A stretch of 64,000 nucleotides of DNA from assembly GCF_001542855.1 (NCBI RefSeq), contig NZ_LNBY01000017.1, positions 1 through 64,000 on the forward strand, in the 5' to 3' direction. The position numbers were made by a program, and so were the translations under genes. Shown one piece after another: positions 13,567-25,009 of this stretch; within the stretch, counting starts at the first letter, position 1, and each line of letters starts with the position of its first letter. This DNA comes from Erythrobacter sp. AP23 (GTDB lineage: Bacteria > Pseudomonadota > Alphaproteobacteria > Sphingomonadales > Sphingomonadaceae). The notes below the pieces were generated by a model. It had not been told where the DNA came from, did no database searches, and worked only from the letters and a program-made list of their open reading frames with translations.

Positions 13567-13640
13567 GGCCCGATGGCGGAGTGGTTACGCAGAGGACTGC
13601 AAATCCTTGCACGCCGGTTCGATTCCGGCTCGGGCCTCCA
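13567..13640 (+). tRNA. tRNA-Cys (GCA)
   Basis: A 74-nt cloverleaf. The acceptor stem ggcccga/tcgggcc (13567-13573 with 13630-13636) pairs perfectly, the discriminator is U, and CCA is encoded (13638-13640). The anticodon loop has GCA at 13599-13601, and the T arm carries ggttcgattcc. Confidence 0.95.
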
Positions 13641-13663
13641 CTTCTCGCTGGTCGGCGAAGAGT

Positions 13664-13739
13664 GCCGCTTTAGCTCAGTTGGTAGAGCACATCATTCGTA
13701 ATGATGGGGTCACGTGTTCGAGTCACGTAAGCGGCACCA
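13664..13739 (+). tRNA. tRNA-Thr (CGT)
   Basis: A 76-nt cloverleaf. The acceptor stem gccgctt/aagcggc (13664-13670 with 13729-13735), discriminator A and encoded CCA (13737-13739) are visible. The D arm is tagctcagttggtagagc, and the anticodon CGT is at 13697-13699 (reads ACG). It lies 23 nt after tRNA-Cys, so the two are probably co-transcribed. Confidence 0.95.
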
Positions 13740-13895: not shown

Positions 13896-15716
13896 ATGGG
13901 CATTTGCCAGCACGACAACGACGAGATTGCGCGCGGTCCGAGGGCCGCCTTCCTTGGCATACAGGCCATGCTGCTGGCGGGGGGTGCGGCAGTTGCTGTA
14001 CCATCGGTTGCATACGCGCAAGCGGTGCCGAGCCGGACCGAGCTGACCCCGCCGCAGGCACGCGAGCCGGTCCGACCGCCGACCACGCTGACGATCGATG
14101 GCGGCATGGAACGCTCTCCCTGCGCGCTCGACGCGCCCGATCTTGCGGACATCAAGGTCACGCTCAACTCGGTGCGCTTCGTCGGTGCGGAAAAGGCGCC
14201 CGATGTCGCGCTGGATGGGGCCTATCAGAGCTACCTTGGGCGCGAGCTGCCGATCTCCGTGCTGTGCGACGTGCGCGCGGCGGCCAACCAGCGATTGCAG
14301 CGGGCAGGCTATCTCGCGACGGTCGAGATTCCGGCGCAGCGCCTGTCGAATGGCGATGCCGAGATGCGCATCGTGTTCGGCCGCGTGACCGCGCTGCGCG
14401 TGCGCGGCGATGCCGGGCCGTCGGAACGGCTGGTCGCCGGCTATCTCGAGCCGATCACGCAGGATGCCGTGTTCAACACGAGGCGGGCCGAGCGCTACCT
14501 GCTGCTGGCCGACGACTTGCCCGGCGTCGACGTTCGCCTTTCGCTGCGTCCGGCGGCGGACGGTGCACCCGGCGACCTGGTGGGTGACATCGCGGTGATC
14601 CGGCGTCGCGGCACGCTCGACTTCAATGTGCAGAACTATGGCGCCAAATCGCTGGGGCGGTTCGGCGGGCTTCTGCGCGGCGAGGTTTACGACATCACCG
14701 GCCTCGGCGATCGCACCAGCGTCGCGCTGTTCTCGACCGCGGACTTCGAAGAACAGCAGACCGTCCAGCTCGGGCACGATTTCGCGATCGGCGGCGAAGG
14801 GCTGCGGATGTTCGGCCAGTTCACCTACAGCTGGACCGATCCCGATCTCGACCTGCCGGGCCTGGACGTCGAGTCCGAAACGCTCTTCGCCACGCTCGGT
14901 CTGGCCTATCCGCTCCAGCGCAGCCGCAGCGCCTCGCACGTGCTCAGTGGCGGGTTCGATTTCGTCGACCAGGACCTGACGGTGAACGATTTGCGCCTAA
15001 CTCGCGACCGGGTGCGGACCGTCTTCCTGCGGCTCGACTCGTCCTATGTCGACGCCGACAGCATTTCGGGCACTAACGGGTACACGGCCTTCGAGCCCCG
15101 CCTCGGCGCTTTCGGTGCCGTGGAAGTGCGCCAGGGCATCGACGTGTTCGATGCCAGCCCCGACTGTCGCCCCAATCCCGGAGGCTGCATTGCGGCAGGC
15201 ATCGCACCCAACCGGATCGAGGCCGACCCCACCCCGCTGATGGTGCGGGTCGAAGGCCAGGCCGACTATCGCCCGCTGCCGGCATTGCGCTTCTCGCTCG
15301 GAATGAGCGCGCAATTCACCGGCGACCCACTCCCGGCGTTCGAAGAATTTGCCGGTGGAACCTATTCGATCGGACGCGGCTATGACCCGGGCAGCATCCT
15401 GGGCGACAATGGCTACGCGCTCTCCTTCGAGATCGGCTACGGCTCGTTGGCACCGGCCGGTCCGCGCGCAGTGGCGTGGGAGGGCTATCTCTTCACCGAC
15501 ATGGCCTGGGTGTGGAACGAGGATCCGAGCCGCGCCCCGCTCAATCCCGACCGGCTGTGGTCCGCAGGGGCGGGCGTCCGCTTTGCCTATGGCAGCGCGA
15601 TGCAGGCCGATGTGACGCTGGCCGTGCCGCTCGAAAAGCCGGACTTCGCCGCCGATCGCGGAGACGTTCGGCTGCTCTTCTCGCTCACCACCCGCCTGCT
15701 ACCCTGGAGGTTCTGA
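13896..15716 (+). CDS. Two-partner secretion outer-membrane transporter (FhaC/ShlB/TpsB family)
   Basis: A 606-aa protein. TpsB proteins are Omp85-superfamily beta-barrels that secrete one TpsA partner across the outer membrane. The signal peptide is at residues about 1-41 (cleavage AYA-QA), with a Pro-rich linker to about 65. Two POTRA-like domains follow (about 87-163 and 166-235), then a barrel to the C-terminal Phe (LLPWRF, a typical OMP end). The conserved loop-6 motif appears as GRGYDPG with Arg494 (canonical VRGY). It ends one base before the ATG of the giant gene, which is its evident substrate. It starts 156 nt after tRNA-Thr. Confidence 0.9.
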   Translation: MGICQHDNDEIARGPRAAFLGIQAMLLAGGAAVAVPSVAYAQAVPSRTELTPPQAREPVRPPTTLTIDGGMERSPCALDAPDLADIKVTLNSVRFVGAEKAPDVALDGAYQSYLGRELPISVLCDVRAAANQRLQRAGYLATVEIPAQRLSNGDAEMRIVFGRVTALRVRGDAGPSERLVAGYLEPITQDAVFNTRRAERYLLLADDLPGVDVRLSLRPAADGAPGDLVGDIAVIRRRGTLDFNVQNYGAKSLGRFGGLLRGEVYDITGLGDRTSVALFSTADFEEQQTVQLGHDFAIGGEGLRMFGQFTYSWTDPDLDLPGLDVESETLFATLGLAYPLQRSRSASHVLSGGFDFVDQDLTVNDLRLTRDRVRTVFLRLDSSYVDADSISGTNGYTAFEPRLGAFGAVEVRQGIDVFDASPDCRPNPGGCIAAGIAPNRIEADPTPLMVRVEGQADYRPLPALRFSLGMSAQFTGDPLPAFEEFAGGTYSIGRGYDPGSILGDNGYALSFEIGYGSLAPAGPRAVAWEGYLFTDMAWVWNEDPSRAPLNPDRLWSAGAGVRFAYGSAMQADVTLAVPLEKPDFAADRGDVRLLFSLTTRLLPWRF

Positions 15717-15717
15717 C

Positions 15718-18700
15718 ATGGCCCGCTCTCCCCTTTGCCGCACTCCCCTGCTGCTTGGCGGGGCGGCGCTCGCCATGGCCACCGTGCTGGCCCTCCCGGC
15801 ACCCGCCGGGGCCGATGCGTTCAACGCCTCGCCCGTCTTCGTGCGCGGCAGCGGCAATGTCGACCGTTCGGTCGCGAACACCGACACGATCACGATCACC
15901 TCTTCGACTGCCGTCCTCGACTGGACGCCCTTCGAGGACAATTCCGGCAATGCGCTGACCTTCCTGCCGAACGGGAACACGGCCTATTTCCAGGACGCGC
16001 CGGGGCAGGGCGGCTTTGCGTTGCTCAACCGGATCCTGCCGTCGACCAACGGCAATATCGTGGTGTTCGAAGGATCGGTGATCTCGCGCCTGCAGGATGC
16101 CAGCGGCGGATTCTCGAGCGGCGGGACGGTGGCATTCTACTCGCCGACCGGGATCCTCGTCGGGAGCACGGCGGTGTTCGATGTCGGGCAACTGCTCCTG
16201 ACCACGCTCGACCCCGACCTCGACAGTTTCGAGAGCTATGTGGCTGGCGGTACGCTGAGACTGGCTGGCCCATCTGGCTCCACCGCCGCCGTCGACATTG
16301 CCGCGGGCGCTCAGTTTTCGGCGAGCGCCGAGGGCAGCTATCTAGCCGTCGCGGCACCGCAGATCATCATGCGGGGCACGGCCTATATCAACGGGTCGAC
16401 AGCCTATGCGGCGGGCGAACAGGTTAATCTCACCTATAACAACGGGCTGTTCGACATCCAGATTCCCGTCGGTACGAGTGTCGGAACGCCGATCGATCAC
16501 AGCGGAACCACCGGCGGGCCTTCGAGCATGGGCTCGGGCGACAATCACATGATCTACGCGGTCGCCAAGGCGCAGACCGATCCGATCTCCATGCTGCTGC
16601 GCGGTAATCTGGGGTTCGATGCCGCGACCACGGCCGGCATCGACAATGGCGATATCATCCTGTCGGCCGGCTATGACGTCTTCGGACGCAACGTCTTCAC
16701 CGGGCCGGTGGCCAGCGCTGCGACCGCGGAGTCGATCTCTATCCTCGGTGGATCGAACCTGAGTTCCAGCGTGTTTGCAGGCGCCACGGGCGGCTTCAAC
16801 GCGGATACGGGGGCAGGCACTATCGGTTTCGCCGACGATCTGACGATCCGCGCGGCCCGCTCCATTTCCCTCACGGCGCGAAACGGAAACGATCTTACCG
16901 TCGCCGGAAACTCAAGCTTTCAGGCCAAGGGTACAATCGCTCCTTCGGGCGATGTGACGGGGGGAGAGATCACGCTTACCGGGCGCGATGCGGCTACCCT
17001 TGCTTTCGCTGGCAATCTTTCGGCCTTCGCCACTCCGGACCAACGCGATGGGACATCGACCGGTGGCACGATCGCGCTGATCGCCGATGGCGGGACCGTC
17101 TCGGTCGGTGGAGATGTCGACCTGTTCGCACAGGCCAACAACCACTTCCCCAGCGGGACGCTTGGCGACGGGTTCGGCGGCACGACCCGTCTGCTTGCCC
17201 AAAACGATGGCCTGATCGACCTGCGTGGCGGCTTGCAGATGAATACCAACGCCTTCGGCAATGGCCTCGCTGGGCGAACCGCCACGGCGGGAACCAGCGA
17301 AATTTTGGCACGCAGCGGCGGTCGGATCGATGTGGCGGGTGATGCGCTGATGCAGGCATCGGGATTTGGCGGCGATGCGGACGGTTCGCTCGGTGTGATC
17401 GATGGCGGCGCCGGGATTGGTGGGCTGGTGCAGGTTCGGGCCGATGGAGGCAGCATCGCCTTTGGCGGCACTGTGTCCATGCAGGCAGAAGGATACGGCG
17501 GCGACGGCGCGAGTTTCTTTGGCGCGGGACCGGGCGATGGTGGCGGGATCGGCCGCGGAGGCCTGGTGCTGATCAACTCCATCGATGGGTCCATTACGAT
17601 TGCGGACACGACCACGCTTCTCGCAAGTGGTCGCGGTGGCCGTGGCGGTTCCGGAGGCGCGGGCTTCGGGGGGCGCGCGCAGGTCCTTGCTAATGGCACC
17701 GGAAGGGTGAACCTGGTCGATCTCTCCGCCTCCGCGCATGGATTGGGCGGTGACGGTTCTGCGGAGGATGGTCGCGGGGGCGACGGCGAGGGTGGCCAGT
17801 CCGTAATCTTCACTGAGGGCGCGGGCGACATCCGCCTGAGCGGAAGTGCGAACCTTCAGGCCAACAGCTTCGGTGGCGATGGCCATGCAGGGGGAAATGC
17901 GACGGGCGGCAATGCAGGTCTCTACGCCGTAGCCGGCTCGATCGCCGTCGATGGCAATGCGTACGTTTCCACGCAGGCGTTCGGCGGCGACGCGACTATC
18001 GGTTTTGGTGGCAATGGCGGGGATGCGCTCGGAGGCACCTCCTACCTTCTGGCAGATGGATCACCGACGGAAAGTGCAAGCGTGACGATCGGCGGGAATG
18101 CCGACGTCTACGCTAGCGGTTACGGCGGCGATGGGGGAGCAGGCGATGGTTCGACGATAGCCGCAGGTAATGGCGGGACCGGAACCGGCGGTACTTATCA
18201 GGGGGCGCCGGGCACCGGCGGAGCCTTCGCTCTTGCCGGGCGTGACGGGGGCATCCTGAGCGTCGCGGGTACGACCTTTCTCCAGTCGTCCGGATACGGC
18301 GGTCGTGGCGGAGCGGGCGGGACCGGCCAGATGGGTGGTGCAGGTGGTTCGGGAATTGCCGGCACAACTCAGGCGGGCACCTATAGGGCATTTGGCGATG
18401 GCTCGCTCGGCGACGGGCAGGCCATTTTCGATGCACTCACCCTGACTGCCAGCGGTTTCGGTGGGCAAGGTGGAACAGGCGGATCAGGGCAGGGCATCGG
18501 CGGTATCGGCCGAGGCGGGTTCGCCGGCGTCTTTGCCGTGGATTCGTGGGTCGATGCCGCGCGCATCTCGACGACGGCAAGCGGATTCGGTGGCTTCGGC
18601 TCGACCGGCGGCGACGGCTTCGGTGGCAATGCCGGCGTGGCAGTAACCTCGGGCATGATGACCGCCGCCAGCCTTTTCGCCTCGGCCGGCGGCAGCGGTG

Positions 18701-21700
18701 GTGGAGCCACGACGGGACAGGGAGGTACCGGTACCGGTGGGGAAACCTCGATCGATACCGATGTGGACACGAATTCGATCCTGAATGTGACCGGCGACAT
18801 CGATTACTCCGCATTCGGCTCGGGAGGATCCTCCGAATTGGGCAATGGCGGGATCGGGCGAGGCGGAACGGCCCGCCTTGCCAATGCCCGCACCGGAAGC
18901 CTTACGGTCGGCGGTCGCATCGCCTTGTCGGCGGGGAGTAGCGGTGGATCGGGGGTTGTCGGCGGCGATGCCTTTGCCGGAAATGCGCTGTTCGAGGTCG
19001 AGGAGAATTCCACGACAGATATCGGTTCGCTTGATCTGTTCGCAAACGCTTCCGGCGGTTCGGGCACCGTTACGGCTGGAATGGCCGTTGCGGGCGATGC
19101 ACGCCTGTTTGTGAACGGCGGCGCGTTCACCGCGCAAGGCAATGTGGATATCTTCGCCGACGCCTTCGGCGGAACGGGCCTCGACGGGGCGAATGGCGGG
19201 GCTGCCTATGGCGGGATCGCGAGCATCCAGATCGATGGCGGCGATGCGACCATCGGCGATGGGCTGATCGTCTTTGCCGGAGGCTTCGGCGGCTCGGCGC
19301 AAGGGCCGGGCGGCGATGGAGGCGACGGCTTCGGCGGAGCGGCCCTGGTGTCCGTGGGGGGCAACGCCAACCAGTTGGGCAGTCTCACGGTCGATGGCAC
19401 GCTCAGCATGCTCAGCGATGGCTATGGCGGTCGCGGGGGCGATGGCGACGGCACCATTGCGGCGGGCAAGGGCGGGCTTGGCCAGGGCGGTCGCGATGCC
19501 GTCGCCAGCCTGGTCGACGGCGAGCAGGGAACGGGTGCCTATGTCTTCGTCAGCTCCGACTATGGGCGCCTGTCCATCCCGGGCGGGGCGAACATAACCG
19601 CGCTCGGTCAAGGTGGAGAGGGTGGCAATGCGCCCGAAGGAAGCACCGGGGGGCGCGGCGGCGACGCGATCGGCGGCGACGTATTGGTCGGTCTCGTCGG
19701 ACCAATGGCGGGCGGACCGCGACTTGGCTCTGCGGTATTCGGCACGCTGAATGTTGCCAGTCGGGCAGATGCCGGTTCGGGCGGAACGGACGACACGGGG
19801 CGCTACACCGGCGTGGGCGGCAATGCCTTTGGCGGCAACATCCTGGTCGCCAGCCGCGGATCGGGCCTGTCTGCCGGTTCGATCGGCATTTTCGACACCA
19901 GCGTAGGCGGAGCTGGAAGCACCGGCGGGAATGCTACCGGCGGCCAGGCCGGCATGGCGACGAGCGATGGCGGGACGATCGATGTGGGCGACTATCACGC
20001 CGCGTCGGTTGCCTATGGCGGTCTCGGACAATCCGGCCCGGGCGGCAATGCGATAGGCGGGATCGCCTTTCTCGGCTTCCAGGGTGGCACGACCAGTATC
20101 TCGGGATCGGCCACTGTCGACGCCAGCGGTTATGGCGGCGAGTCGATCGAGGGCGATGGCGGCGATGGGACGGGCGGCACGGCCGATATCGCCATCTTCA
20201 GTGCGAGTGTGGGCAGTGGCAGCGTGACCGGACCGGTCAACATTTCCGCCAACGGACTTGGTGGCAGCACGCAATCGACGAGCGGCGAAGGCGGGACAGG
20301 AACGGGTGGGCTCGCCTATGTGCGCAGCCAGGCAGGAGGAAGCATCAGCTTCGGCAGCGTCTCGCTTTCCGCCAACGGGACGGCCGGTGTCGATGCGGAT
20401 GGTGCGCCCTCGGGCGATGCCATCGGCGGTCTGGTTCAGGTGCTCGCAGATGGCGGAGGTCTGTTCACCGCCGACTTCCTGCAGATCGATGCCAGCGGTA
20501 CGGGCACCGCAGGATCGTTCCAGATTATCGCCAATGGCGGCACGATCGAGCTCGACGAAGTCGATGCCAGTGCCGTCGGCGCACAGGCCGGCGATGCTTC
20601 ACTGATCCGCGCCGCTGGCGGGACGATCCCGATAAGCGGGTCGGCCCGGTTCACGCTGACGGGCGATTTCGACATCGTCACGGCAAACGGCGGATTGATC
20701 GGCGGCCCGAGCCTCGCTGCGCCTTCTGCCCGGATCGACATTTCCACCGAAGGTACCGTCACGATCGATGGCGACGATGACGACCGGATCAGCTTCGGCG
20801 GTGAGACGCTGGCCATCCGATCGCGCGAGCTCGATATCCTGTCGGGCGCGCGGATCGGGGCGCAATTGCTGCAATTGAACGTCGTCGGGAACGACCATCG
20901 GACGGTGATCGGGGGCAGCGGCGACACGGCGGGATACACGCTGACCCAGGACGAGCTCGGCCGCATCGATGCTGGCGCAACCACATTCGCAACATCCCTC
21001 GATGGCTCGGCATCCGATGACCTCCTGTTCCGCGACACGACGATTTCCGGTTCCCTCGACGAGGGGGTTTCCGAACTCGAGATCAGTGCCAGGGTGGTGC
21101 GCGTGGAAGGGATGGTGACCTATCGGGACGCCGCCGACACCGACTATCTCGGTATTTTCGCCGACCGGCTTGAAATCGTGACACCGGGCGGAATCCAGAT
21201 CCTCGGTCCGAACGATCGATATACCGGCACGTTCGAATTCGAAGGCGGCAATTTCTGGATGGCCGACGCCGACACTATCGCGCTGCTGCAGGGAGATGTC
21301 GCCTTCGAGGGACGCAACGACCTGCTCGCGACATCGGCACCGGGCAGCGACGATCCGCTTGGCTATCTGAGGGCCGGTGACGTCGAGATCGATATCTGGG
21401 AATCCTTCCTCGTGCGCAACACCGGCTCCGCCGCAGAGCCCGGCGGCATCACCGTGACGGGATCGCTGACCGTCGATGGTGATGGCGACGAGTCCGAAGT
21501 CCCGCTCGATGTGTTTGCCTATGGACGTCGGCAGAATGAAGACGGGTCCTTCACGACCGGCGCCGACTTCTTTGCACTGGTCGATTTTGAAGGTGGGGAA
21601 GATGAGGAAGGCGAGATCAACTACTCCGATGATGCGCAATTCAACAATTGCGGCATCAATTCCGGAGAGTGCACGGTGGTCGAAGAGCCGGACGAGCGCG

Positions 21701-21981
21701 AGGAAGTGCTCGAAGAGGTCGAAGAAGAAGCGCCGGCTGCCGCCGTGACCACGACAGAGCCGGTCGCCTCCGCGCCGATCGAGCAAAGTGAGCAGGACAG
21801 CAATGTCGAGTTCGGTGCCGACTTCCCGGGTCTGCTCAGCGCGTCGTTCATCGCCGAACAGGATACGATCGACGACCCGGTGGCGAGTGGCGGAGACATC
21901 GCGCTCTACGGTTCCGGCGATGGGGGCGACGACGATGCCGAAGAAGACGGTGCTGCCGAGGAGGATACCGATGCGCAATAA
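15718..21981 (+). CDS. TpsA-like giant secreted Gly-rich filament protein
   Basis: A 2087-aa protein. The signal peptide is at about 1-32 (cleavage AGA-DA). Residues about 33-290 resemble the TPS/haemagglutination N-terminal domain recognised by TpsB POTRAs: NGNIVVFEG and the strand block FYSPTGILVGS...FDVGQLLLTT correspond to the usual 'NPNGI' block, with SPTG at 142-145 replacing NPNG. Residues about 400-1640 are degenerate Gly/Ala/Asp repeats predicted to form a right-handed beta-helix. About 1660-1960 is a non-repetitive beta-rich part, then a Cys pair (Cys1978, Cys1985) and a very acidic tail. GGAGG lies inside the tpsB end. The function could be adhesin, biofilm matrix or effector; nothing in the sequence decides. 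Confidence 0.85.
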   Translation: MARSPLCRTPLLLGGAALAMATVLALPAPAGADAFNASPVFVRGSGNVDRSVANTDTITITSSTAVLDWTPFEDNSGNALTFLPNGNTAYFQDAPGQGGFALLNRILPSTNGNIVVFEGSVISRLQDASGGFSSGGTVAFYSPTGILVGSTAVFDVGQLLLTTLDPDLDSFESYVAGGTLRLAGPSGSTAAVDIAAGAQFSASAEGSYLAVAAPQIIMRGTAYINGSTAYAAGEQVNLTYNNGLFDIQIPVGTSVGTPIDHSGTTGGPSSMGSGDNHMIYAVAKAQTDPISMLLRGNLGFDAATTAGIDNGDIILSAGYDVFGRNVFTGPVASAATAESISILGGSNLSSSVFAGATGGFNADTGAGTIGFADDLTIRAARSISLTARNGNDLTVAGNSSFQAKGTIAPSGDVTGGEITLTGRDAATLAFAGNLSAFATPDQRDGTSTGGTIALIADGGTVSVGGDVDLFAQANNHFPSGTLGDGFGGTTRLLAQNDGLIDLRGGLQMNTNAFGNGLAGRTATAGTSEILARSGGRIDVAGDALMQASGFGGDADGSLGVIDGGAGIGGLVQVRADGGSIAFGGTVSMQAEGYGGDGASFFGAGPGDGGGIGRGGLVLINSIDGSITIADTTTLLASGRGGRGGSGGAGFGGRAQVLANGTGRVNLVDLSASAHGLGGDGSAEDGRGGDGEGGQSVIFTEGAGDIRLSGSANLQANSFGGDGHAGGNATGGNAGLYAVAGSIAVDGNAYVSTQAFGGDATIGFGGNGGDALGGTSYLLADGSPTESASVTIGGNADVYASGYGGDGGAGDGSTIAAGNGGTGTGGTYQGAPGTGGAFALAGRDGGILSVAGTTFLQSSGYGGRGGAGGTGQMGGAGGSGIAGTTQAGTYRAFGDGSLGDGQAIFDALTLTASGFGGQGGTGGSGQGIGGIGRGGFAGVFAVDSWVDAARISTTASGFGGFGSTGGDGFGGNAGVAVTSGMMTAASLFASAGGSGGGATTGQGGTGTGGETSIDTDVDTNSILNVTGDIDYSAFGSGGSSELGNGGIGRGGTARLANARTGSLTVGGRIALSAGSSGGSGVVGGDAFAGNALFEVEENSTTDIGSLDLFANASGGSGTVTAGMAVAGDARLFVNGGAFTAQGNVDIFADAFGGTGLDGANGGAAYGGIASIQIDGGDATIGDGLIVFAGGFGGSAQGPGGDGGDGFGGAALVSVGGNANQLGSLTVDGTLSMLSDGYGGRGGDGDGTIAAGKGGLGQGGRDAVASLVDGEQGTGAYVFVSSDYGRLSIPGGANITALGQGGEGGNAPEGSTGGRGGDAIGGDVLVGLVGPMAGGPRLGSAVFGTLNVASRADAGSGGTDDTGRYTGVGGNAFGGNILVASRGSGLSAGSIGIFDTSVGGAGSTGGNATGGQAGMATSDGGTIDVGDYHAASVAYGGLGQSGPGGNAIGGIAFLGFQGGTTSISGSATVDASGYGGESIEGDGGDGTGGTADIAIFSASVGSGSVTGPVNISANGLGGSTQSTSGEGGTGTGGLAYVRSQAGGSISFGSVSLSANGTAGVDADGAPSGDAIGGLVQVLADGGGLFTADFLQIDASGTGTAGSFQIIANGGTIELDEVDASAVGAQAGDASLIRAAGGTIPISGSARFTLTGDFDIVTANGGLIGGPSLAAPSARIDISTEGTVTIDGDDDDRISFGGETLAIRSRELDILSGARIGAQLLQLNVVGNDHRTVIGGSGDTAGYTLTQDELGRIDAGATTFATSLDGSASDDLLFRDTTISGSLDEGVSELEISARVVRVEGMVTYRDAADTDYLGIFADRLEIVTPGGIQILGPNDRYTGTFEFEGGNFWMADADTIALLQGDVAFEGRNDLLATSAPGSDDPLGYLRAGDVEIDIWESFLVRNTGSAAEPGGITVTGSLTVDGDGDESEVPLDVFAYGRRQNEDGSFTTGADFFALVDFEGGEDEEGEINYSDDAQFNNCGINSGECTVVEEPDEREEVLEEVEEEAPAAAVTTTEPVASAPIEQSEQDSNVEFGADFPGLLSASFIAEQDTIDDPVASGGDIALYGSGDGGDDDAEEDGAAEEDTDAQ
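17280..20560 (+). repeat. Degenerate Gly-rich tandem repeats inside the TpsA-like gene
   Basis: About 1,090 codons repeat a loose unit of about 45-65 residues: a hydrophobic strand (SIAFGGTVSMQAEGYGG type), a G-G-D-G-x-G-x-G-G-x-G-G loop, then 'GG-x-x-x-h-h-A-D/N-G'. The units are diverged in DNA, so this is an old expansion and not a recent slippage tract. They are translated throughout with no stop. Confidence 0.75.
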
Positions 21982-24900
21982 GACCCGCTGCGCCCTCTGT
22001 GCCTTTGTAGCCGCCTCACTGGCCCTGTTCGATCCGGCCCATCCGGTATCGGGTCAGGAGAGGGAACGTGCGATCAGCTATAGCGATACCTTCCCGATCG
22101 GGGCCAACGGGCTGTGCGAGGCGCAGATCATGCCGCCGCAGGCCGATTCCGGCCTGTTCGACCGCAGCTATGCGATCGTCTGCCGCGACGCTGCGGCGCC
22201 GGTGGGTACGCTGTGGGTGATCCGCGATGCTGAGGGAAGCGATGTCGGGGCGCGCTTTCTCCCGTCGGCCGAATGCCTCGTGGGGGACGTCACGGCCGTG
22301 CCCGAGATACTCGCCGCAAGCGCAAGCTACGCCTGTACCGATAGCGATCTCGGAACCCGGCGGGTTCTCGTGGCCGGTGAGGCCGGCGGTAGGCTTTATG
22401 CGGGCGAGGCAATCGCGGCATATGCGGACGCGGTAAGGCTGGGGATCGCCACGCTGGTCAACGACCGGCCGGTGCAGGGGGATGTCGAGATTCCGCTCAC
22501 CGAGACCGGCGATGCAGCAGCCTTTGCCCGGGCGCAGGCCCGCGCGCTCGCCTCGGATGCCGTCATCGTCGAGGCCTATCGCCGCAGCAACAGCGGCGAT
22601 TTTGCCGAAGCGGCGGAGTTCTTCGCGCAAACCGCCGCCACCACTGAGGGGAGCGATGCGGCCGAAGCCCGCCTCAACGCGGCCCTGCTCCAGTCGAACC
22701 TCGGCAATTTCGCCGAAGCGGCGCGGGGATTTTCAATTGCGAGGGGGCAGGTCGCAGGCGATCCGGTGCTGTCGCGACTGCTGCGCAATTACGAGGCTAT
22801 CGATGCGCTCAATGCTGGCGCGCCGCAGGTCGCGCTCGATATTCTCGAACGGCCCTTGCAGTCGGGTGCGACCTCTCGCGACGCGCTTGAATCGCTGGAG
22901 ATCACCGACGCACTGGCGGCGCGCCTGTCGGCCGAGCAGGCGAGCGCGCTCGATTCCGTCGGTGGATTGACGGGGCTCGAACGGGCCGATCTGCTCGATG
23001 GTCAGACGGCCTATCTCAAAGCCACCGCGCTGCGGTTGATGGGACGCAGGGCCGAGGCGGAAAGCCATCTGACCGACGCCGACACGAGGCTCGCACGCGT
23101 GCGCAACGGGACGGTGCGTTCGATCCTCTGGTTGAGGGCGCAGGTCATGGGCGAATTGGCCGATCTGGCAGAGGAGAGAGGCGATAGCGCCGCTGCCGAG
23201 GCCTATCACGCAGAAGCGATCGGCGTGCTCGCGGCCAACTATCCCAATTCACGGGCCCTCCTCAGCAGCAAGGCGCAGTTCGCCGGATTTCTCGCCCGCA
23301 GCGGTCGGACCGGCGACGCGCTGGCGACTTATCGCGAGCTGGTCGACAAGGCGGAAGGCAAGCCCGCGCCCTCGTTGCGGCGCCTGCTCGTCCCCTATTT
23401 CAACCTGCTGACCGATGGCGGCGTGGCCGGCAGCGACGCGGCGGCCGACATCTTCCTCGCCAGCCAGCTGCTGCAACGCCCGGGCCTCGCCCAGACGCAG
23501 GCCGTACTCGCCCGTGAACTGTCGGGCGGGAGCGACGAGGCCTCGCAATTGTTCCGCAAGGCGGTCAATGTCGGGCGGTCGGTCGAACAGGCGCGCAATC
23601 GTGTCGCACTGCTCGAAGGCCGCGCCGCGAGCGATCCACTGGCTGCCGAACGCCTGGCCACCCAGCGCGCAACGCTCGAAAAGCTCGAGGCGCAGCAGCT
23701 GGCGATTCAGGACAGGCTGGGTGAATATCCCCGCTTTCGTGCGGTCTCGGATGGGCGCGTTACGTTGGACGAACTGCAGCAGACGCTCCAGCCCGGCGAA
23801 GCCTATCTCAAGCTGGCCACGCTGAACGGTGCGACCTTCGTCATCTACGCCACGCCCGACATGGCCCGCGCCTACCGTGCCGGGATCGATCCCGAAGCGC
23901 TGGAGGCCGAAGTCGACGAACTGCGCGCGACCATCGCCTATGTCGAGAATGGCCAGACGCTCACCTTCCCCTTCGACATCGAGAAATCGCGCGCGCTTTA
24001 CGAGGCATTGCTCGAACCCATCGACGGAGAGCTAGGTTCGGTCGAGCATCTGATCTTCGAACCCGATGGTGCGATGCTGCGCCTGCCGGTCAATCTACTC
24101 GTGGCCGACGACCAAAGCGTCGAGCGTTACGCCGAGCGGATCGCGCGGGGCGGCGACGAATATGATTTCACCGGCACCAACTGGCTCGGCCGCAAGGTGC
24201 GGATCACCACCACCGTTTCGCCAAGCGCGTTTCGCGATGTGCGGCAGGCGCCGCGGTCATCGGCCTCGCGCGAATACATCGGCTTCGGCGAGAATACGCC
24301 CTTGGGCGAGGAGCGCGGCACGCTGGGGACGCGCTCGGCGCTGGCGGGCGGGTCGGACTGCCTCTGGGCTCCGGCAATCTGGGATTATCCGATCAAGGCC
24401 GACGAGCTCTACACCGCCTCGCGCAGCCTGGGCGCGAGCGCTGCCGAAGAGCGGATCGTCACCGGCGATACCTTTACTGATAGCGCAGTGTTGGGAATGG
24501 ACGATCTGGACGAGTACCGGATCCTTCATTTCGCGACGCACGGCCTCGTCACGGCACCGCAGCCCGAATGTCCGCCCCGGCCCGCCCTGCTCACCTCCTT
24601 CGGGGGCGACCAGTCCGATGGGCTGCTGTCCTTCGCGGAGATTTTCGACCTCAGGATCGATGCCGATCTGGTGATCCTCTCCGCCTGCGACACGGCGGGC
24701 GCGGCCACACGCGGCGCATCGCGCGAGGCGGGCGTTTCGGGGGGAGGCTTCGCGCTCGATGGTCTGGTCCGCGCCTTCGTCGGCGCCGGCGGACGCACGG
24801 TGGTCGCCAGCCACTGGCCCGTGCCTGACGATTACGATGCCACCAATCGACTGATCGATGGGTTCTTCGCCGCCCCTGGGGGAACCCCGCTGGCCGAGGC

Positions 24901-25009
24901 CATGCGCCGCTCGCAGGGCGCCCTGATGGATCAGGCGGAAACCTCGCACCCGTTCTACTGGTCGGCCTTCGCGATCGTCGGCGATGGCGGCGCGCAGCTG
25001 CGCAACTAG
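21971..25009 (+). CDS. Secreted CHAT-domain peptidase with TPR-like N-terminal half
   Basis: A 1012-aa protein. It has a probable signal peptide (about 1-29: basic start, CALCAFVAASLALF core), then about 150-560 of helical Ala-rich TPR-like repeats (RRSNSGDFAEAAEFFAQTA, LLQSNLGNFAEAARGF), a short coiled segment (about 570-620), and a C-terminal CHAT domain (about 690-1012). CHAT is a caspase-like cysteine peptidase fold; the His of FATHG (His857) and the Cys of LSACDTAG (Cys906) form the expected dyad, both intact. The ATG overlaps the tpsA stop by 11 nt with GAGGAGG ahead, so it is coupled to tpsA. It is a candidate processing or effector protease of the TPS product. Confidence 0.88.
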   Translation: MRNKTRCALCAFVAASLALFDPAHPVSGQERERAISYSDTFPIGANGLCEAQIMPPQADSGLFDRSYAIVCRDAAAPVGTLWVIRDAEGSDVGARFLPSAECLVGDVTAVPEILAASASYACTDSDLGTRRVLVAGEAGGRLYAGEAIAAYADAVRLGIATLVNDRPVQGDVEIPLTETGDAAAFARAQARALASDAVIVEAYRRSNSGDFAEAAEFFAQTAATTEGSDAAEARLNAALLQSNLGNFAEAARGFSIARGQVAGDPVLSRLLRNYEAIDALNAGAPQVALDILERPLQSGATSRDALESLEITDALAARLSAEQASALDSVGGLTGLERADLLDGQTAYLKATALRLMGRRAEAESHLTDADTRLARVRNGTVRSILWLRAQVMGELADLAEERGDSAAAEAYHAEAIGVLAANYPNSRALLSSKAQFAGFLARSGRTGDALATYRELVDKAEGKPAPSLRRLLVPYFNLLTDGGVAGSDAAADIFLASQLLQRPGLAQTQAVLARELSGGSDEASQLFRKAVNVGRSVEQARNRVALLEGRAASDPLAAERLATQRATLEKLEAQQLAIQDRLGEYPRFRAVSDGRVTLDELQQTLQPGEAYLKLATLNGATFVIYATPDMARAYRAGIDPEALEAEVDELRATIAYVENGQTLTFPFDIEKSRALYEALLEPIDGELGSVEHLIFEPDGAMLRLPVNLLVADDQSVERYAERIARGGDEYDFTGTNWLGRKVRITTTVSPSAFRDVRQAPRSSASREYIGFGENTPLGEERGTLGTRSALAGGSDCLWAPAIWDYPIKADELYTASRSLGASAAEERIVTGDTFTDSAVLGMDDLDEYRILHFATHGLVTAPQPECPPRPALLTSFGGDQSDGLLSFAEIFDLRIDADLVILSACDTAGAATRGASREAGVSGGGFALDGLVRAFVGAGGRTVVASHWPVPDDYDATNRLIDGFFAAPGGTPLAEAMRRSQGALMDQAETSHPFYWSAFAIVGDGGAQLRN

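Follow-up and report, generated by a model that had tools for sequence, protein, structure and literature searches.

CHAT peptidases have been studied mostly as cytoplasmic effectors and scaffolds, and a CHAT protein with a signal peptide, encoded next to a secretion system, raises the question of what it does there. Such a protein is encoded in a stretch of 64,000 nucleotides of Erythrobacter sp. AP23 (contig NZ_LNBY01000017.1, positions 1 to 64,000; hereafter the window), whose source genome is a relative of Qipengyuania, the nearest named CHAT relatives being found in Q. citrea and Q. mesophila. Three open reading frames (ORFs), verified in the window and all on the + strand, form a tight operon there, encoding the outer-membrane transporter (TpsB) and the filament protein (TpsA) of a two-partner secretion (TPS) system, followed by the CHAT protein. 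Comparison across genomes gives good support to the view that TpsB-TpsA-CHAT is a conserved system and no chance neighbourhood, and we refer to it as a module. As to its function, we propose, with about even confidence, that the CHAT protein acts in the periplasm on the C-terminal tail of its TpsA, thereby releasing or maturing the filament, and that this step is coupled to an inner-membrane cyclase.

TpsB (606 amino acids, 13896..15716, + strand), identified by its ORF and Pfam matches and by a tree of relatives, carries a POTRA_2 domain (14160-14375) and a ShlB region (14613-15584), with scores of 53.9 bits for ShlB, 30.2 for Omp85, and 29.7 for POTRA_2, all above the cut-off. One nucleotide separates it from TpsA (2087 amino acids, rich in glycine, threonine, and alanine; 15718..21981, + strand), which in turn overlaps the CHAT gene (21971..25009, + strand) by 11 nucleotides (21971-21981). 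By eye, purine-rich stretches resembling ribosome-binding sites precede all three starts. The original prediction for this locus, which had described an Omp85-type secretion pore, a 2087-residue filament substrate, and tight packing with a ribosome-binding site before each gene, is borne out on each of these points.

Is this arrangement peculiar to one genome? Among 147 genomes of the order, 60 CHAT matches of at least 90 bits were found in 40 genomes, and 29 of these 60 had a TpsB gene on the same strand within 30 kb. Viewed from the transporter, a same-strand CHAT gene lay within 30 kb of 25 of the 30 TpsB relatives that scored at least 200 bits, versus 4 of 40 weaker rows, which include pieces of one gene. 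The conserved unit in many Sphingomonadales that the original prediction had asked for is thus present, and it recurs in other orders. A 26th strong TpsB relative, in genome G112, stands beside a CHAT gene broken by a run of N; a real loss of CHAT in that genome was considered and set aside, the gene being interrupted in this way. Three main gene orders were observed: TpsB-TpsA-CHAT, as in the window, CHAT-TpsB-TpsA, and CHAT-cyclase-TpsB-TpsA. In a tree of 58 CHAT domains (L040 and L045 omitted by choice, L071 and L102 for length), 29 TPS-linked domains formed one group (100/99), and the smaller linked types L067/L068 and L069/L070 fell outside this main linked group. The first of these is a CHAT-TpsA-TpsB type with a shorter, divergent CHAT that occurs twice in genome G065, besides the main unit.

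The N-terminal four-cysteine domain of the CHAT protein, described below, allowed wider surveys. It was detected in 116 of 298 Sphingomonadaceae genomes and, in a class-wide sample of 337 genomes, in 15 genomes outside the family, at 16 places. At 12 of the 16, a TpsB gene or a giant or contig-cut TpsA-like ORF lay beside the CHAT gene on the same strand, and at one a TpsB gene lay on the opposite strand. These places are in part related: L154 and L127 appear to represent a single organism, L158 and L159 share a genome, and L154/L156, L157/L160, L161/L164, and L168/L169 are same-genus pairs. Named carriers of the unit include a Sphingobium herbicidovorans plasmid, Sphingomonas parapaucimobilis, and Niveispirillum cyanobacteriorum, which belongs to another order. 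In S. parapaucimobilis (L125), the unit lies amid type VI secretion genes, followed by a CPBP intramembrane protease.

The third protein of the operon (1012 amino acids, with an ATG start) is, judged by its sequence, a member of the CHAT peptidase family and a predicted peptidase: the domain PF12770 (23984..24985) scored 177.6 bits against a cut-off of 24. The predicted catalytic residues His857 (24539..24541) and Cys906 (24686..24688), which had been reported as intact, are correctly numbered and retained in all 34 aligned TPS-linked CHATs, a conservation that favours catalysis. Upstream of the peptidase domain, a crude scan placed a Sec-type signal peptide without a lipobox at approximately residues 1-28 (21971..22054), and sub-cut-off Pfam TPR matches, together with helices in a low-confidence model, point to a helical TPR-like region at about residues 182-583 (22514..23719). 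Between these lies a domain with four cysteines (Cys49/71/102/122; 22070..22498), recognized by alignment and profile, that is typical of TPS-linked CHATs. The four cysteines were invariant in 15 of 15 hand-chosen sequences from two orders, and the profile of the domain matched six additional linked CHATs and no unlinked CHAT among those tested. Moreover, 31 of 32 linked CHATs of the family have exactly seven cysteines after residue 25, six in addition to the catalytic one (the remaining protein has nine), a count that would fit three disulfides and one free active-site thiol. A phmmer search of the CHAT protein against PDB sequences gave no match up to E=10.

Export of the CHAT protein is likewise well supported by sequence. 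By a crude scan whose cut-off was set afterwards, 33 of 35 linked CHATs have a signal-like N-terminus, versus 46 of 111 in a control set that mixes real with spurious ORFs. Outside the family, the CHAT is often a predicted lipoprotein, a lipobox being visible by eye at 11 of the 16 places.

The identity of the exported filament is less apparent from profile searches. The window TpsA had no match in a full-length Pfam scan, nor was the TPS domain PF05860 detected in its first 400 residues; a match to NCBIfam adhes_NPXG remained below threshold (15 bits, cut-off 29.1). We modelled the first 380 residues with AlphaFold2, obtaining a mean predicted local distance difference test (pLDDT) score of 57, with values of about 60-90 over residues 31-250. 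When compared with the PDB, this model matched EtpA (3.4e-9) and HxuA and HMW1 (about 1e-6 to 1e-5), and more weakly HpmA and FHA (1e-3 to 7e-3). EtpA, HxuA, and HMW1 were the matches at E<=0.001, with TM-scores by query length of just 0.41-0.48 (range 0.4-0.5). By its modelled fold, then, the window TpsA has a TPS secretion domain, at approximately residues 35-255 (15820..16482, + strand). Of eight TpsA N-termini of relatives searched with PF05860, those of L159, L164, L168, and L066 matched, and those of L044, L048, L058, and L123 gave no match. A profile built from N-termini of the TpsA family picked up more distant TpsAs, among them L164 and L168, which carry the Pfam TPS domain. Across linked loci, the TpsA ORFs range from about 1,700 to 7,550 amino acids.

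Despite this range of lengths, the tails of the linked TpsAs share a pattern. In the window, tail comparison revealed a pair of cysteines, Cys1978/Cys1985 (C-x6-C, 21649..21672, + strand), which is a candidate disulfide hook, and a near-terminal motif, IDDPVASGGDIALYG (21868..21912, + strand), which tail comparison and a motif profile mark as a C-terminal signature of CHAT-linked TpsAs. The consensus in linked TpsAs is about [DN]-[DE]-P-V-x-[GS]-x-G-[ND]-x-x-[LI]; it lies some 10 to 40 residues from the end, mostly preceded by the cysteine pair and by a linker that is acidic or rich in proline. A pattern of this motif, drawn up after the tails had been inspected, was found in 28 of 29 tails of the family, 7 of 12 outside the family, and 1 of 15 controls. 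Its chance rate was 11.6%, with 268 of 2320 interior pieces of 60 residues, taken at random, containing it. L056, L069, and L179 were left out of this test, their TpsAs being cut by the end of the stretch; the 15 controls include L070, which has a linked CHAT of a divergent type, and L066 is in both test sets. In the 20 control regions, a composition rule found TpsA-like ORFs in 10, of which 9 were complete. At some loci (L048, L053, L059, L062, L066, L071, and L123), a second cysteine pair is present at the extreme end of TpsA, behind the motif. This pair resembles those at the ends of the CHAT-less TpsAs L072-L074, and it would be lost if the protein were cut at the motif.

Since the pattern is post hoc and occurs in 11.6% of random pieces, a genome-wide survey with the motif profile is the stronger test. 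Among the matches listed, to which the counts of this paragraph refer, the 298 Sphingomonadaceae genomes contained 108 matches at E<=1e-3, in 95 genomes. Of these genomes, 94 also have the four-cysteine CHAT domain, compared with a base rate of 116 in 298, and 92 of the 108 matches lie within 30 kb of this domain on the same strand. The threshold was chosen after the listing had been inspected; at E<=1, the profile of 20 columns matches at least 214 of the 298 genomes, mostly by chance. Six of the remaining 16 matches were examined, and these comprised four TpsAs cut by a contig end, one running past the end of its stretch, and one complete protein. The latter, L190:4702-12570, is a TpsA of 2622 amino acids with the motif, in a genome whose CHAT domain is on another contig; neither TpsB nor CHAT was found in the 18-kb stretch around it. 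One of the contig-cut TpsAs, which bears the motif, is followed at a distance of about 4 kb by a CHAT without the four-cysteine domain (L191:12246-15302).

Loci without CHAT provide a complementary view. The four TpsAs encoded beside the CHAT-less TpsB rows L072-L075, from three genomes, all have no motif, and the order-wide CHAT search gave no CHAT match in these three genomes. In a tree of 64 TpsBs (L130, L067, and L068 omitted for length), where CHAT-minus means that none lies beside TpsB and some such genomes have a CHAT elsewhere, these rows nest at two places inside a group of 39 (98/95). The CHAT-bearing L066 and L125, which were grouped with two CHAT-less TpsB rows, have retained a variant of the motif.

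A fourth gene appears to belong to the same system. In one of the gene orders, the gene between CHAT and TpsB encodes a CHASE2-nucleotidyl cyclase, which in Niveispirillum lies behind CHAT. Using a subfamily profile with a threshold of 700 bits or more, we detected this cyclase in 116 of the 298 family genomes, 111 with and 5 without CHAT; 5 genomes had CHAT only, and 177 had neither. The cyclase is thus present in 111 of 116 CHAT genomes versus 5 of 182 others, and in all 95 motif genomes among the matches listed. Only 59 of the 118 cyclase matches lie within 10 kb of CHAT; of the other 59, 23 are on the same contig at distances of 27 kb to 3.3 Mb, and 36 are on other contigs. When genomes with CHAT-cyclase linkage within 10 kb were left out, 52 genomes had both genes, 5 the cyclase only, 5 CHAT only, and 177 neither. 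Fisher values for the table ignore kinship, which a comparison within genera answers in part: in 20 mixed genera, the cyclase was commoner with CHAT in 17, rarer in none, and tied in 3, a genus label being available for 121 of the 182 CHAT-negative genomes. Outside the family, the stretches around 7 of the 16 CHAT places contain the cyclase. In the window genome, it is encoded apart from the operon (G000:C16:154861-156951, more than 10 kb from the CHAT gene). Two aspartates, which we take to be metal-binding, were kept in all eight aligned sequences.

Directly behind the window-genome cyclase, on the same contig (C16), lies a gene for a small secreted protein (L128:7927-8667). Proteins of this kind, about 240-260 amino acids long, were found in 20 loci, the window genome's included, and adjoin the cyclase in each. 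Four members tested had no Pfam match above the cut-off, and two cysteines were invariant in ten aligned members. It is possibly a fifth component. Kinship with cyanobacterial DUF928 was considered and set aside; by eye, the two are not recognisably alike.

How might these parts work together? A precedent is offered by CdrA, a TpsA adhesin of Pseudomonas aeruginosa. According to PMC5422565, PMC4694147, PMC11898600, and PMC13090378, a hook formed by C-terminal cysteines presumably keeps CdrA in place; release follows when LapG, a cysteine protease of the periplasm that is controlled by the inner-membrane protein LapD, cuts the periplasmic C-terminal tail of the adhesin. The CdrA/CdrB-LapG-LapD system would share its plan with the module as proposed here: a TPS adhesin, an exported cysteine protease for the C-terminal tail, and an inner-membrane nucleotide-signalling protein. 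The components differ, however. LapG is there described as a transglutaminase-like protease, whereas the peptidase here is a caspase-like TPR-CHAT, and LapD is a receptor of cyclic di-GMP, whereas the likely inner-membrane partner here is the CHASE2-nucleotidyl cyclase. In addition, a search of the window genome for Peptidase_C93, the LapG family, gave no match. By analogy, the module may work like the LapG system, but it is no member of it.

It is because each of the roles of CdrA, LapG, and LapD has a candidate here, among unrelated proteins, that we propose the periplasmic TpsA tail as the site of action of the CHAT protein. TpsB would export the TpsA filament, and the CHAT protein would be exported to the periplasm, where disulfides would hold its N-terminal domain and leave the active-site cysteine alone unpaired. 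The tail of TpsA would stay in the periplasm, downstream of the cysteine pair, which may hook in the pore. The CHAT protein would then recognize the motif-bearing tail and cut at or near it, upon which the filament would be released or matured; the inner-membrane cyclase, together with the small secreted partner, may sense or control this step, in a direction of signalling that we can only infer. Within this proposal, the cleavage, its site, and the role of the cyclase are conjectural, as is the outcome for the filament, which might be released, matured, or anchored after the putative cut. Of the interpretation given in the original prediction, the conserved unit and the export stand; that the CHAT is armed by the filament found no backing, and proteolysis of TpsA would be a deduction. 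It is the separately encoded cyclase and the tail motif, neither of them part of that prediction, that lend the proposed function its outline. More tentatively, and as a possibility that we would not yet favour, the CHAT protein might be a dedicated C-terminal processor that reads the tail tag on any TpsA, separately encoded ones included, the state of the tail being passed by way of the small secreted protein to the CHASE2 cyclase and turned into a cyclic-nucleotide signal of filament status.

Several observations weigh against the proposal that CHAT processes the TpsA tail. With respect to the CHAT protein itself, being exported does not by itself single it out within this order: 24 of 26 CHATs without nearby TPS genes (sampled from 31 unlinked matches) also have signal-like N-termini, so that the earlier view of an exported CHAT as unusual holds for the export (33 of 35 linked CHATs) but not for its distinctiveness. 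The linked types L067-L070 and L127 escape the profile of the N-terminal domain, three of the 16 places outside the family (L155, L162, and L163) show no clear TPS gene, and the full-length AlphaFold2 model of the protein is poor (mean pLDDT 52). As for the tail, no motif was found within 30 kb on the same strand at 35 of 136 CHAT-domain matches among those listed, of which some are on other contigs and some divergent; the complementary figure of 101 is loose, being based on the 108 rows at E<=1e-3 and 12 hand-picked weaker rows. The strict pattern is present in just the seven of 12 tails outside the family, with the Niveispirillum-type L154 and L156 deviating, and the joint loss of motif and CHAT rests on four rows from three genomes. 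The correlation of motif and CHAT may also have arisen through block inheritance of the operon only. The cysteine pair, though present in many relatives, is missing from the motif-bearing TpsAs of L041, L042, and L057, and terminal pairs are also found in the CHAT-less TpsAs L072-L074. Finally, five CHAT genomes have no cyclase, and for the 36 cyclase matches on other contigs an assembly break can hide linkage.

Some of this evidence can be read differently. TPR parts commonly bind peptide tails, and the CHAT protein might be a sensor or chaperone, the TPR part of which binds the TpsA tail in the periplasm and reports the status of secretion to the CHASE2 cyclase; proteolysis, if any, would then be directed elsewhere, for example at the small secreted partner. 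The strong co-occurrence of CHAT and cyclase would suit this explanation, as would the small secreted protein beside the cyclase in all 20 loci, that of the window genome among them, but the retention of histidine and cysteine in 34 of 34 CHATs speaks for catalysis, and we consider this role doubtful. Rather less probable is a function in C-terminal sorting, in which CHAT cuts the tail and hands the filament to a surface anchor by transpeptidation instead of releasing it. PorU of the type IX secretion system, likewise a clan CD cysteine peptidase, acts on C-terminal signals of exported proteins, and a short near-terminal motif that is constant on TpsAs of about 1,700 to 7,550 amino acids, including one remote from any TPS gene seen (L190), would be expected of such a signal. 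No anchor-making gene turned up in the neighbour gene sets, however, though none was searched for, and CHAT comes from another family than PorU and accompanies another secretion system.

Two further explanations have little in their favour. In a competition or anti-phage system, CHAT could be the effector and TPS its delivery or trigger, as the CHAT domain is listed among effector domains of bacterial conflict systems in a part of PMC10907252. This is very unlikely, given that the CHAT is exported, that PADLOC had no match for the three proteins, and that the TpsA tails are conserved rather than variable. As the TpsA and CHAT genes overlap by 11 nucleotides, an immunity gene could not fit between them, and the combination of a variable toxin end and a small immunity gene that marks contact-dependent inhibition was not found. 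The least probable explanation is ordinary linkage, by which CHAT, TPS, and cyclase would be inherited together without a joint function; the parts are widespread in the lineage and often lie side by side, but the cyclase tracks CHAT also in the 52 genomes without linkage within 10 kb, the tracking holds within genera, and the gene order varies.

The module can also be set apart from better-known relatives of its parts. Like Csx29, the TPR-CHAT of type III-E systems, HetF, and other cytoplasmic CHATs, the protein has a CHAT domain that contains a His/Cys dyad and is preceded by TPR-like helices, but it differs from them in being exported and in its four-cysteine N-terminal domain. In agreement with what had been predicted, no CRISPR or gasdermin families were among the Pfam matches of the nine neighbouring ORFs (9439-30242), nor was gRAMP/Cas7-11 found beside the CHAT gene among these ORFs. 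With classical TPS systems such as FhaB/FhaC, HMW1, and EtpA, the module shares the ShlB and POTRA_2 matches of TpsB and the TPS fold of TpsA; it departs from them in a TpsA unseen by the Pfam TPS model and in the addition of CHAT, cyclase, and tail motif. A cyanobacterial cluster on a Calothrix plasmid (L131) has adjacent CHAT, DUF928, and CHASE2 genes, but TpsB and TpsA are not annotated in that stretch.

In the window, genes for tRNA-Cys and tRNA-Thr (13567-13739) lie directly upstream of the operon, and sulfate-assimilation genes follow downstream on the opposite strand. The CHAT domain is absent from two same-genus genomes, G050 and G124, for which reason gain or loss may have taken place at the tRNA-flanked site. 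PADLOC and PHROGs each gave zero matches for TpsB, TpsA, and the CHAT protein, and a promoter and terminator scan found signals no more frequent than in shuffled sequence.

Single parts of the module have already been named in genome annotation, as on the Sphingobium herbicidovorans plasmid and in Sphingomonas parapaucimobilis. In open-licence literature, however, the CHAT domain was not found linked to two-partner secretion, filamentous hemagglutinin, or CHASE2, and a term search for "CHAT" gave no hit in either PMC4104836, which surveys the TpsB superfamily, or PMC5422565, which reviews TPS. What is new here is the combination of the parts into one system, along with the four-cysteine domain, the tail motif of TpsA, and the link to the cyclase. 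Together, the gene set and the tail tag suggest an undescribed way of processing or releasing surface filaments. A large exported branch of CHAT proteins has a specific set of partners, a likely substrate, and a conserved short tag, which makes substrate, cleavage, and control testable in environmental bacteria. If the proposal is true, the module would solve, a second time and with unrelated proteins, the problem that LapG and LapD solve; a subfamily of CHASE2 cyclases would acquire a function, and the release or retention of giant TPS filaments in Sphingomonadales would be explained.

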